A DNA stretch of 64,000 nucleotides from Sphaerimonospora thailandensis (lineage in GTDB: Bacteria > Actinomycetota > Actinomycetes > Streptosporangiales > Streptosporangiaceae), in NCBI RefSeq assembly GCF_016863115.1, contig NZ_BOOG01000008.1:124001-188000 (forward strand), in the 5' to 3' direction. How positions within the stretch are numbered: position 1 is the first letter of the stretch; each line of letters begins with the position of its first letter. Below are positions 2,920 through 61,425 of this stretch, piece by piece. Under the pieces are notes generated by a model, which worked only from the letters and a program-made list of their open reading frames with translations, did not search any database and was not told the DNA's origin. Made by a program: the position numbers and the translations under genes.

Positions 2920-5302
<2,383 letters not shown>

Positions 5303-10856: not shown

Positions 10857-11080
10857 CCCCAGCCGTGATCTTGCGAATTCTCACAGCAGAGCGCCGTGAG
10901 CAGGGATTTCTCGCGCCGTGATCTTGCAGTTTCTCGCAGATGTGTGCCCTGACCAGCGAAAACGTTGTTCATGATCTTGCGGTTCACAGTAAGTGCAAGA
11001 TCATGAAACCCGTATACCAGGTCGGGTGGCTTAGGTGTGAGAAACTGCAAGATCACGGGGGTGGGGGTGGGGTGCGGTGG
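10857..11080. repeat. 53-bp symmetric repeat array 1
   Basis: Three forward units begin at 10865, 10918 and 10971, exactly 53 bp apart. Each opens GTGATCTTGC (ATGATCTTGC at 10971); the first two close with CTCRCAG. Two reverse-complement units end at 11004 and 11056. The two innermost units face each other as a perfect 13-bp stem (10968-10980 / 10995-11007, TTCATGATCTTGC). Spacers keep GA(C/G)C(A/T)G at their nt 12-17. A C-tract precedes (10856-10861) and a GGGGGTGGGGGTGGGG tract follows. The array fills the gap between two convergent genes. The expected sixth unit (ending near 11109) is missing where the GerMN gene ends. Confidence 0.9.
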
Positions 11081-32217: not shown

Positions 32218-32425
32218 ACGACCACGTGCGGGAGAGACCCCTGGCGGCAGGGGCGCCGAAGGAGCAACCTCCCCGGAATCTCTCAGGCATCCGTACCGCA
32301 CGGACGAGGCGACTCTGAAAAGCGGGCGCACCAGCCAGGTGGGCCTCACCGAAGGGGAAAGCCGGGACCGGATCGGCCCGGTGAAGCTCTCAGGTCCGAT
32401 GACAGAGGGGGAGACCGCACACGCC
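32218..32425 (+). ncRNA. Tandem glycine riboswitch
   Basis: Two adjacent glycine aptamers. Aptamer 1 (about 32226-32312) shows GCGGGAGAGACC, GCGCCGAAGGAGCAA, GAATCTCTCAGGC and GACTCTGAAAAGC. Aptamer 2 (about 32320-32420) shows CTCACCGAAGGGGAAAGCC, GAAGCTCTCAGG and ATGACAGAGGGG. These are the conserved J and P3a elements of the family. The element ends about 30 nt before the gcvP start, so glycine should switch expression of the cleavage-system P protein. Confidence 0.93.
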
Positions 32426-32455
32426 TGGTCTCGACCCGCCCGGGAGGCCCCTGTC

Positions 32456-35320
<2,865 letters not shown>

Positions 35321-40431: not shown

Positions 40432-40768
40432 AGGACACCTCCTCCTTGACGGAGTTCGTTGTTGTGGGTGCTGACGATGGGGCGCGGCGGTCTCTCGGCG
40501 GCTCAGCGCACCAGTAGCAATAACGCCACCGCGCCCAGTTTGTTCCCTCCCCCCACCCCCTCCCGCGCGTGATCTTGCGAAAACTCGCAGGCATAGCCGC
40601 TGACCAGGCATGACATTGTCGGTGATCTTGCAGTTGCTCGCAGGTGTGCCTGGTCAGAGCGGACGGCTGTGAGTTTCTGCGAGATCACAAACGGAAGAAG
40701 GGCAGGTGGGCGGGCATCTCTGCGAGAAACTGCAAGATCACGCGCGGTGGGGTGGGGGAGGGGAGGGG
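40432..40768. other. Upstream region of sigma factor gene
   Basis: This 337-nt gap holds the sigma gene promoter and leader (40432-40545) and repeat array 2 with its C- and G-rich flanks (40545-40768). No coding frame is credible. Confidence 0.6.
40545..40768. repeat. 53-bp symmetric repeat array 2
   Basis: Two forward units start at 40569 and 40622 (53 bp apart) and two reverse units end at 40741 and 40688 (53 bp apart). The pairs 40569/40741 and 40622/40688 share one exact dyad centre at 40655. Inside, TGACCAGGCA (40601-40610) and TGCCTGGTCA (40647-40656) are complementary. A C-tract (CCCTCCCCCCACCCCCTCCC) precedes and a G-tract (GGTGGGGTGGGGGAGGGG) follows. Units share GTGAT-CT-(T/C)GC at the left and CTC(G/A)CAG at the right. 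Confidence 0.9.
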
Positions 40769-59009: not shown

Positions 59010-59513
59010 ATGGCTTACGAGATCCGGGCTATCGAGCCCGCTGTAGTGGATCAACTCAGGAGAGTGGACGACGCGGGCCGGGAGCCGCGACAGGTCGCCG
59101 ACACCGAGGGCGGCAGCCCGCTGCGCTGCTGTCTGCGGCGGTCGGAGCCGGGGGAGGATACCCTGCTGGTCTCCTATTCGCCGCTGCGCCGCTGGATGGC
59201 CGAGACCGGCGCCGATCCCGGTCCGTATGAGGAACTGGGGCCGGTGTTCATCCACGCGGGACCGTGTGCGGGGCCGCGACCGGGCTACCCGGAGGCGATG
59301 GGTGGGCCTCGGCGCGTGTTCCGCGCCTACCGGGCCGACGGCTCCATCCTCGGTGGGCACCTGCTTGAGGAGCACCGCTCGACCGATCCCGCGATGGCGT
59401 CCGCGCTGCTGGAATCACTCCTGGACAACCCGGAGGTCGCGTTGATCCACGTTCGCGCGGTGGAGTTCGGCTGCTTCCTGTTCGAAGCACGTCGCCCCGC
59501 CCCCACTCCGTGA
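59010..59513 (+). CDS. DUF1203 family protein
   Basis: A 167-residue protein with the DUF1203 pattern PLRCCLRRSEPGEDTLLVSYSPL, GPVFIHAGPCAG and VRAVEFGCFLFEA. Function unknown. ATG 59010 has TTGGAGG upstream. Its stop abuts the C-tract of repeat array 3. Confidence 0.85.
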   Translation: MAYEIRAIEPAVVDQLRRVDDAGREPRQVADTEGGSPLRCCLRRSEPGEDTLLVSYSPLRRWMAETGADPGPYEELGPVFIHAGPCAGPRPGYPEAMGGPRRVFRAYRADGSILGGHLLEEHRSTDPAMASALLESLLDNPEVALIHVRAVEFGCFLFEARRPAPTP

Positions 59514-59770
59514 TCTTGCGAATTCTCGCACGAAAGCCTCCCGACCTGCGCGGATCCATTCCGTGATCTTGCAGATAATCGCAGGCACGCCGTACGACCT
59601 GCGTCTATGTATTAGCTGATCTTGCGGTCGCCGGGAAGTGCAAGATCACCGACAGTGTTTTCGCTGGTCAGTGGGTAGGCCTGCGAGAAACTGCAAGAAC
59701 ATGGACGTGAAGTGCCTGCTCATGGCGCCGACTGCGAGAATTCGCAAGATCACGGCAGGGGGAGGCTCTG
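59491..59770. repeat. 53-bp symmetric repeat array 3 (most complete)
   Basis: Three forward units start at 59510, 59563 and 59616 (53 bp each). Three reverse units end at 59649, 59702 and 59753. Pair sums (59510+59753, 59563+59702, 59616+59649) agree within 2, giving one dyad centre near 59632.5. The outermost units are reverse complements at 21 of 22 bases. Spacers carry GACC(A/T)GCG or GAGCAGGC at the same offset. A C-tract (CGCCCCGCCCCCAC) precedes and GGGGGAGG follows. Confidence 0.92.
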
Positions 59771-59802: not shown

Positions 59803-61425
59803 TTATCCGAGGGCCTTGAGGAAGGTGGCCGCGATCGGGGCGGCGACCGCGCCACCTCCGCCGCCGCCCTCGACCACGACGGCGAAGGCGAGATCGCCTC
59901 GGTAGCCGACGAACCAGGCATGCGAGTCGAGCTCGGGGCCGGTGCCGAACTCGGCGGTCCCGGTCTTGCCCGCGGTCCCGGCCGGCAGGCCGGCGGTGCG
60001 TGCCGTGCCCTTGGTCACCACGGCCTTCATCATCGCGCGGAGCTGCTCGGCCACCCCGTCGGGCAGCGGCGCGGGCGAGGCCTTCTGCTTGAGAGACGGC
60101 ACCAGCGTGGGCGGGCGCCACGACCCGTCGGCCACGGTGGCGGCGACCCCCGCCATCACCAGCGGGCTGGCGGTGATCTCGGCCTGACCGAAGGACTCGG
60201 CCGCCAGCTCGGCGTCGCTGGTCGCCTTGGGCATGCTGCCCGTCGTCGCCGGCACGCCGATGTTGAGCGGCCGGTTGAACCCGAAATCGCCCGCCAGGTC
60301 GTACAGCTTCTGCGCACCCAGCTTCTCGGCGGTCATCGGAGCGAACGTGGTGTTGCAGGAATGGGCGTAGGAGTCCAGGAACGACAGCGAACCGAACGAC
60401 TCGTGGTCGGAGTTTCGGATCTTCAGGCCGCCGACGTTCGCTTCCGGAGGGCAGGTCACCGTCGAGGACGGGGTGACGCCGGTGGCCAGCAGCCCGGCGG
60501 CGGTGATGGTCTTGAACGTCGAACCCGGCGGATAGCGGCCGTCCAGGGCCCGGTTGAAGCCGCCCTGGCTGTTGACGACCGCGAGGATCTCACCGGACGA
60601 GGGCCGGACGGCCACCAGGGAGGTGGGTTTGGGCAGGTCGCGTACGGCATCGGCCGCGGCCTTCTGCACCCGCGGATCGAGGCTGGTCCGCACGTCCTCG
60701 CCCCGCTTGCCCTTGATCGTGTGCAGTGTCTCGCTCTCGCTGCCGACGACCTGGATCTCGGTGGTCGGGGTGCCGGCGAGCCGCCTCTCGAAGGTCTCCT
60801 GCAGGCCACCGCGTCCCACCGCGCCGCCCACACGATAGGCCGCGCCCAGCTTCTTGACGTCCTTGGCGGTGGCCTTGTCCAGAAATCCGACGAGTTGCTG
60901 CACCGAACCGCCGTCGTCGCCGTCATCGATGCGGGCGCCGCCGGCATCCATGATCGCGGCCCTGGCCGGCCAGGTCGTCTTGATCGCCAAATGGTTGGCA
61001 CCGCTCAGCGCGGGATGGACGGCGGCCGGAGACCAGTCCACCTTCCAGTGACGGTCCTTGACCACGAGCTGCAACTTGCCCTTATAGGTCCACTCGCCCA
61101 CGTTCTTGAGGGACGCGGTCGCGGTGTAGGAGGCGGTGGAGCGGTCGTCGACAGGGTCGCTCACGCGCATGCCGGTGACGGTGACCTTGGTCGCGCCCAG
61201 GTTCTTCGTGAGCTCGGCATAGGCCGCCTCGAAGCCGGCGGCCGGGGCCGCGAGTTCGGCTTTCATGGCCGTGAGGTCCCCGCGTGACCATGCGGCCGTG
61301 AAGCGCTGGGCCGTCTCCAGCGGCGTTCCCCTGGTGTGCAGCAGGTAGTAGGCACCCCCCGCCCCGGCCGCCGCGGCCACCACGACCGCGGCAGATATGA
61401 TCACGACCGTACGTCCTCGCGGCAC
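59803..61425 (-). CDS. Penicillin-binding transpeptidase with NTF2-like domain
   Basis: A 540-residue class B-type penicillin-binding protein. A membrane anchor (6-28) precedes an NTF2-like MecA_N domain (35-145), a short dimerisation-like domain and the transpeptidase domain (245-540) with Ser302 in STFK, SCN (356-358) and KTG (487-489). It cross-links peptidoglycan outside the membrane and resembles the mycobacterial PbpA/PBP-lipo group. GTG 61425 is the start. It converges with the DUF1203 gene across repeat array 3. Confidence 0.92.
   Translation of the reverse strand: MPRGRTVVIISAAVVVAAAAGAGGAYYLLHTRGTPLETAQRFTAAWSRGDLTAMKAELAAPAAGFEAAYAELTKNLGATKVTVTGMRVSDPVDDRSTASYTATASLKNVGEWTYKGKLQLVVKDRHWKVDWSPAAVHPALSGANHLAIKTTWPARAAIMDAGGARIDDGDDGGSVQQLVGFLDKATAKDVKKLGAAYRVGGAVGRGGLQETFERRLAGTPTTEIQVVGSESETLHTIKGKRGEDVRTSLDPRVQKAAADAVRDLPKPTSLVAVRPSSGEILAVVNSQGGFNRALDGRYPPGSTFKTITAAGLLATGVTPSSTVTCPPEANVGGLKIRNSDHESFGSLSFLDSYAHSCNTTFAPMTAEKLGAQKLYDLAGDFGFNRPLNIGVPATTGSMPKATSDAELAAESFGQAEITASPLVMAGVAATVADGSWRPPTLVPSLKQKASPAPLPDGVAEQLRAMMKAVVTKGTARTAGLPAGTAGKTGTAEFGTGPELDSHAWFVGYRGDLAFAVVVEGGGGGGAVAAPIAATFLKALG

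Follow-up and report, generated by a model that had tools for sequence, protein, structure and literature searches.

Mycobacterial interspersed repetitive units (MIRUs) are actinobacterial repeats of about 50-100 bp that lie between genes and have a stop codon at the edge, features that recall the arrays described here; unlike these arrays, they are direct repeats without mirrored arms or a central hairpin. REP and BIME elements occur in E. coli, Pseudomonas and other bacteria. Gyrase or IHF reportedly binds to BIMEs, REPs reportedly help Rho to terminate transcription, and REP units carry a GTAG or GTGG head (available part of PMC2817692). The arrays resemble REPs and BIMEs in being extragenic (one of 59 Sphaerimonospora thailandensis arrays lies in a gene) and present in many copies (up to 712 tandem pairs per genome), and in consisting of short conserved units in both orientations. 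Their location, and perhaps their role, is that of BIMEs. However, the unit starts with GTGATC instead of the REP head and is not an imperfect palindrome (pair 10-17 is A-C in 210 of 368 units), and the arrays have a strict 53-bp period, a C-rich leader and one reversal at a central hairpin. Intrinsic terminators of Streptomyces are long, stable, strong hairpins after genes with few Us (available part of PMC12207403). The likeness extends to a hairpin behind the gene that shows compensatory change, but here only the centre is hairpin-like, the arms consist of phased repeats with conserved sequence, and the single T-run is placed without regard to the direction of the gene. No description of such arrays was found in the literature searched, which had subscription papers outside its reach, and the available parts of PMC12306157, PMC12207403, PMC2817692 and PMC6379681 describe none.

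Array 3 of the S. thailandensis window (the whole 64-kb stretch of DNA analysed) is confirmed as a real array of three forward and three reverse units (Table 1). Their starts and ends agree with those in the preliminary description, as does the six-unit form, the innermost two units being weak matches to the core (4 and 3 mismatches). At up to three mismatches, the unit pattern matches the window 18 times, where shuffles give an expectation of 1.99. As had been claimed, the outermost 22-mers correspond at all but one base (21 of 22), and the extended outer arms are 90% complementary over 30 nt. The mirror symmetry had been called perfect around 59632.5; this holds for the two inner pairs, but the outer pair is centred one base off, at 59631.5, since the two outermost units on the right are spaced by 51 instead of 53.

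Table 1. Array 3, its neighbouring genes and the related arrays of the window.
Feature	Position	Strand	Basis or remark
Array 1, same family	10865..11056	.	orthologous array in S. mesophila
Array 2, same family, 4 units	40569..40741	.	orthologous array in S. mesophila
DUF1203 gene	59010..59513	+	ORF and PF06718, E 1.5e-33
C-rich leader, left arm	59490..59509	+	still within the DUF1203 frame
Left arm unit 1 (block A and tail)	59510..59530	+	
Block B of left repeat 1, GACCTGC	59543..59549	+	sequence and family consensus
Left arm unit 2	59563..59583	+	
Block B of left repeat 2, GACCTGC	59596..59602	+	sequence and family consensus
Left arm unit 3, 5' side of central hairpin	59616..59636	+	4 mismatches
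Central hairpin TGATCTTGC / GCAAGATCA, loop 59626-59639	59617..59648	.	family-wide compensatory changes
Right arm unit 3, 3' side of central hairpin	59629..59649	-	
Block B of right repeat 2, GACCAGC (- strand)	59663..59669	-	
Right arm unit 2	59682..59702	-	
Block B of right repeat 1, GAGCAGG (- strand)	59715..59721	-	
Right arm unit 1, outermost	59733..59753	-	
C-rich leader, right arm (+ strand: G-rich)	59754..59770	-	sequence and family-wide composition
Convergent penicillin-binding transpeptidase gene	59803..61425	-	ORF and PF00905, E 5.3e-45; also PF05223

The neighbours are, as first described, a DUF1203 gene (PF06718) and a transpeptidase gene (PF00905 with PF05223) that converge on the array. 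The DUF1203 stop codon (TGA, 59511-59513) lies within the first unit. Among convergent or tandem arrays, 9 of 51 in S. thailandensis and 12 of 58 in its congener overlap a stop in this way, at a distance of -4. Array 3 had been said to fill the whole gap between the two genes; it nearly does so, its last unit ending 49 nt short of the transpeptidase stop. Array 1 does sit in a convergent gap, with flanking stops 17 and 25 nt away. A glycine riboswitch (RF00504, 68 bits; window positions 32219-32308, + strand) upstream of a 993-aa frame (32339-35320) is the only feature of the 64-kb window above the Rfam gathering score, the arrays being unmatched.

The family is large. In the S. thailandensis genome (G000), the unit has 410 matches at up to three mismatches, against 87 for a reversed-pattern control; at up to one mismatch there are 108 matches, against none for the control, and 350 in the congener S. 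mesophila NBRC 14179 (G001). We delimited 59 arrays in S. thailandensis, from 51 stretches around unit matches plus the window (part of the genome), and 63 in S. mesophila, from 60 stretches around matches; 38 full copies are alignable over about 245 bp. Of 297 genomes sampled from the family, 2 have exact Sphaerimonospora units, and the 53-bp period pattern (two copies of block A spaced 52 or 53) is found in 15 of 297, from 6 of 68 genera, with none for the reversed-pattern control. Sphaerimonospora and Microbispora both belong to the Streptosporangiaceae. Tandem pairs number 656, 712, 134, 641 and 559 in five genomes of genus g23, 501 in g80, 180 and 39 in Sphaerimonospora, 87, 34, 21, 15 and 2 in Microbispora (g86), 2 in g72 and 1 in g67. 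Across a sample of the phylum, the pattern appears in 2 of 396 genomes, S. thailandensis and G380 (two pairs). In G380, from another family of the class, two C-rich stretches (C1:83880 and 2770630) lie between GTGATCATGC copies 52 apart. G026, from another genus, instead has compact hairpins at loci L271 and L291, in which the same core forms a single stem made of GTGATCATGCGGTTTTGAGCA, 7 nt and then the reverse unit.

Read towards the centre, an arm consists of a C-rich leader of about 20-25 nt and then, usually, two or three 53-bp repeats; units run the same way within an arm, with a single reversal at the central hairpin. The start-to-start distance is 53 for 189 of 239 neighbours and 51 or 52 for 42 more. 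In four genomes of three genera, same-strand neighbours are 53 apart in 67/91, 171/213, 56/86 and 101/125 cases. Each repeat comprises, in order, block A, a lineage-specific tail, a poorly kept middle and block B. Block A, GTGATC[T/A]TGC, is nearly invariant (GTGATCTTGC; in the third genus, G023, GTGATCATGC), its low change rate being partly due to row selection. The tail is CTCGCA, GTCGCA or, in G023, TTCG, and block B is GASCWGS in a fixed phase, around offset 33-39. Differences in block B are chiefly exchanges of C with G and A with T (0.63, 0.70 and 0.65 in three genera, where base composition predicts roughly 0.4 to 0.5 by our estimate), with transitions at 0.16, 0.15 and 0.20. Within the repeat, the top period of helical A/T phasing is about 10 bp in three genera, with 551, 770 and 494 of 5000 permutations as high. 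At G023 loci L306-L321, extra core 10-mers lie 18 and 35 nt apart, six of each (18 + 35 = 53), as if some G023 repeats held a second site inside the spacer.

The leader has a C content of 0.61-0.66 and a G content of 0.11-0.14 on the arms of convergent arrays (n=86) and on the proximal (n=35) and distal (n=35) arms of tandem arrays, compared with C 0.36 and G 0.33 at 398 array-free gene ends. A Rut-like leader that is part of the gene 3' end was considered and rejected, with C at 0.66 on the tandem distal arm (n=35) and 0.61 on the proximal one (n=35). Since the C-tract is equally strong on distal arms, the leader belongs to the arm, and Rho could possibly be involved there. Half arrays, such as L180, L165 and L198, also occur; they stop about halfway through the hairpin. 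Their leading side (n=15, n=5) is equally C-rich, and the other end is control-like.

The preliminary description proposed that the array could fold into a single hairpin of about 240 nt, and named compensatory changes as the test. Part of this is borne out: the predicted RNA fold of array 3 is stable (z-scores -8.29 / -7.24 on the two strands) and the central hairpin co-varies, but the outer arms do not. The central hairpin is present in 71 of 122 arrays. Beyond its invariant core, at 2, 3 and 4 bases outside GATC, Watson-Crick pairs are formed in 55, 48 and 47 of the 71, against shuffled means of 44.8, 37.1 and 30.5; of 2000 shuffles, 0, 2 and 0 reached these counts. Values as high occurred in 20 of 2000 shuffles for base 5 and 87 of 2000 for bases 1 and 6, and there was no pairing excess over shuffles at bases 7 and 9-12. 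The orthologous pair L161/L234 is an example: one species has TTGC/GCAA and the other TCGC/GCGA.

Compensatory change is confined to this centre. For the outermost units of 75 arrays, pairing in the flank (586/1125 versus 567.9), AT centre (198/375 versus 203.3), tail (419/450 versus 419.0) and inside (426/1125 versus 436.2) was as in shuffles, and the flanking C- and G-tracts of 84 arrays showed no co-variation. Repeats 2 and 3 from the centre, in 70 two-arm arrays, gave no regional excess apart from the tail of repeat 2, which had a nominal excess in Sphaerimonospora (z 2.75, 4 of 1000 shuffles). Other nominal excesses, which likewise count against this reading, were found for the repeat 3 tail and block B in G023 (4 and 22 of 1000; 13 arrays), unit position 18 (72/75 versus 70.1; 34 of 1000) and flank or inner positions -13, -12, 22 and 24 (13-34 of 1000). 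In the arm comparison, k=1 rows beyond block A, in which a palindrome is compared with itself, were excluded. Double changes were also in weak excess when the 38 full copies were scored on their RNAalifold structure (9 versus 4.6, 8 of 500 shuffles). A single co-evolving 240-nt hairpin is rejected for the outer arms (outermost units, repeats 2-3 and C/G tracts), and the mirror consists of two polar arms round a small hairpin. A hairpin within each unit or each 53-bp repeat was likewise unsupported by the pairing tests; within units, changes at pairs 9-18 and 7-20 are single-sided. At unit position 14 the two arms match less often than expected (15/75 versus 28.3), which shows that the element has a fixed polarity.

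In the two Sphaerimonospora species, the arrays lie at the 3' ends of genes. Such a location would suit the suggestion in the preliminary description that transcripts coming from the two sides may end inside the array. Gaps are convergent for 23 arrays, tandem for 28 and divergent for 4 in S. thailandensis (contig edge 3, within a called gene 1), and convergent for 31, tandem for 27 and divergent for 2 in S. mesophila (edge 3). Background pairs without arrays number 69 convergent, 390 tandem and 94 divergent in the former, and 37, 210 and 74 in the latter. In tandem gaps, 22 of 28 arrays and 25 of 27 are closer to the stop of the upstream gene, at median distances of 27 and 21 nt. Genes were called with our own codon-usage script, so single placement cases may be wrong. 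The samples from Microbispora and G023 are small, and the gene caller was trained on Sphaerimonospora. Microbispora H11081 has 6 convergent, 16 tandem and no divergent arrays (edge 1), with 11 of 16 nearer the stop; G023 has 6 convergent, 10 tandem and 5 divergent (inside 1, edge 1), with 8 of 10 nearer the stop and, in this small sample, no shortage of divergent gaps. Of the 71 arrays with a central hairpin, 42 have a T-run of at least three after it on one side and 29 on neither side; none has one on both. Its direction agrees with that of the gene in 14 of 28 tandem arrays and is opposite in 12, with 2 ties (p 0.85). This argues against termination at a U-tract and in favour of an element placed in either orientation; polarity that is random relative to the preceding gene is as for an inserted repeat.

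Both flanks of 19 S. thailandensis arrays were found in the fetched S. mesophila stretches, and 18 of these loci share the array. Array 3 is the exception, its S. mesophila site lacking both the array and the DUF1203 gene. In the reverse search, 16 of 19 S. mesophila arrays were present in the fetched S. thailandensis stretches and three absent. These sharing rates are inflated, because both sets of stretches were fetched for holding arrays. At the 18 shared loci, fewer units were detected in S. thailandensis at 15, equal numbers at 2 and more at 1. At L257/L193, S. mesophila has a full array (L257) and the array-free S. thailandensis site has stops about 4 nt apart; at this one clean empty site there is no target duplication. 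Between orthologous arrays, identity is 495/605 in the tail and 234/302 in block B, compared with 402/590 in the middle and 311/485 in the post spacer (21 pairings, of which two are mismatched neighbours without a common unit). That tail and block B are better kept than the spacers points to selection in place, and such unequal conservation speaks for recognition by a protein.

We tentatively read the arrays as two-armed boundary elements that end transcription at gene 3' ends, a role that is possible but short of probable. What counts for it is that the sequence of the arms, not their pairing, is kept, together with the phase, the placement, the exchanges in block B, the better conservation of tail and block B at orthologous loci, the leader's belonging to the arm and the co-varying central hairpin. 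Each arm would be a polar array of putative sites for a sequence-specific DNA-binding protein, with about three 53-bp repeats (five helical turns) holding blocks A and B on a fixed phase and the two arms facing each other across the short hairpin. The bound protein and the central hairpin, perhaps with Rho at the C-rich leader, could stop RNA polymerase from either side, and this block would keep convergent and tandem genes apart. Here we infer both the binding of protein and that transcription is the process blocked. The divergent arrays of G023, the random polarity relative to the gene, the dispensability at some places and the failure of the A/T periodicity, which a wrapped protein should produce, to reach significance count against such an element. 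A more specific form, which seems somewhat unlikely, is a lineage-specific bidirectional roadblock to transcription or chromosome boundary: in several Streptosporangiaceae genera, a dedicated putative protein would coat phased 53-bp repeats behind genes, each genome would have hundreds of such sites, and every array would hold a cruciform or RNA hairpin in its middle. Placement at 3' ends and in convergent gaps, and phased repeats of five turns, would also suit a topological sink that binds gyrase or a nucleoid protein and absorbs positive supercoils behind genes, as BIME-2 reportedly does with gyrase in E. coli; gyrase is reported to be enriched downstream of transcribed units and in BIME-2 (available part of PMC6379681). 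The helical A/T period in the repeat is not significant, however, and the specificity of block A presumably exceeds what gyrase needs, so that we regard this sink as unlikely.

The hundreds of dispersed copies could instead belong to a palindromic repeat that is mobile but non-autonomous, or copies itself, and that serves no function for the host and is tolerated chiefly after genes. The presence or absence of arrays between congeners (L257), the fixed internal polarity with orientation random relative to the gene, and the erosion in S. thailandensis agree with this. We nevertheless find it rather improbable given the unequal decay at orthologous loci, where tail and block B outlast the spacer, the presence of the array in both species at 18 of 19 loci (a set biased by having been fetched for arrays) and the absence of target duplication at the one clean empty site. 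Nor is there a RAYT-type transposase (PF01797) in G023, G026 or G320. Least probable, and in our judgement very unlikely, is action at the RNA level, as an intrinsic bidirectional terminator or a stabiliser of RNA 3' ends. Such a role would fit the stable predicted fold, the central compensatory changes, the weak excess of double changes and the Streptomyces terminators cited above, and central stems also occur in 12 G023 and 13 Microbispora arrays, counted with no control. Against it stand a T-run that is found on at most one side and is random relative to the gene, outer arms without co-variation, units that are not themselves hairpins, and half arrays that have no second arm.

If the arrays are boundary elements, GC-rich actinomycetes, which are poor in U-tract terminators, would have in them a genome-wide means to end transcription or insulate it, and hundreds of natural sites would be available for finding the binding protein. 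Even as a mobile repeat, they would form a large family, strictly phased at 53 bp and present in four or more well-populated genera, of which we found no description.

PF01797 (Y1 transposase) has one match each in S. thailandensis and S. mesophila. The former is an IS200-like Y1 transposase gene (G000:C17:72352-72714, 156 bits), and each of the two loci has one core 10-mer (at most one mismatch) and no array. A RAYT/REP origin was rejected, since G023, G026 and G320, which have no PF01797, all carry arrays or compact relatives. At L264 of S. mesophila, about 400 bp of other, coding-like DNA (about 3460-3880) separates the two arms; the matching S. thailandensis site holds a GTGATCT relic alone, between C- and G-rich tracts. 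At L177 (7018-7045) of S. thailandensis, the full array of the congener has shrunk to a perfect small hairpin, GTGATCTTGCGAATTCTCGCAAGATCAC.
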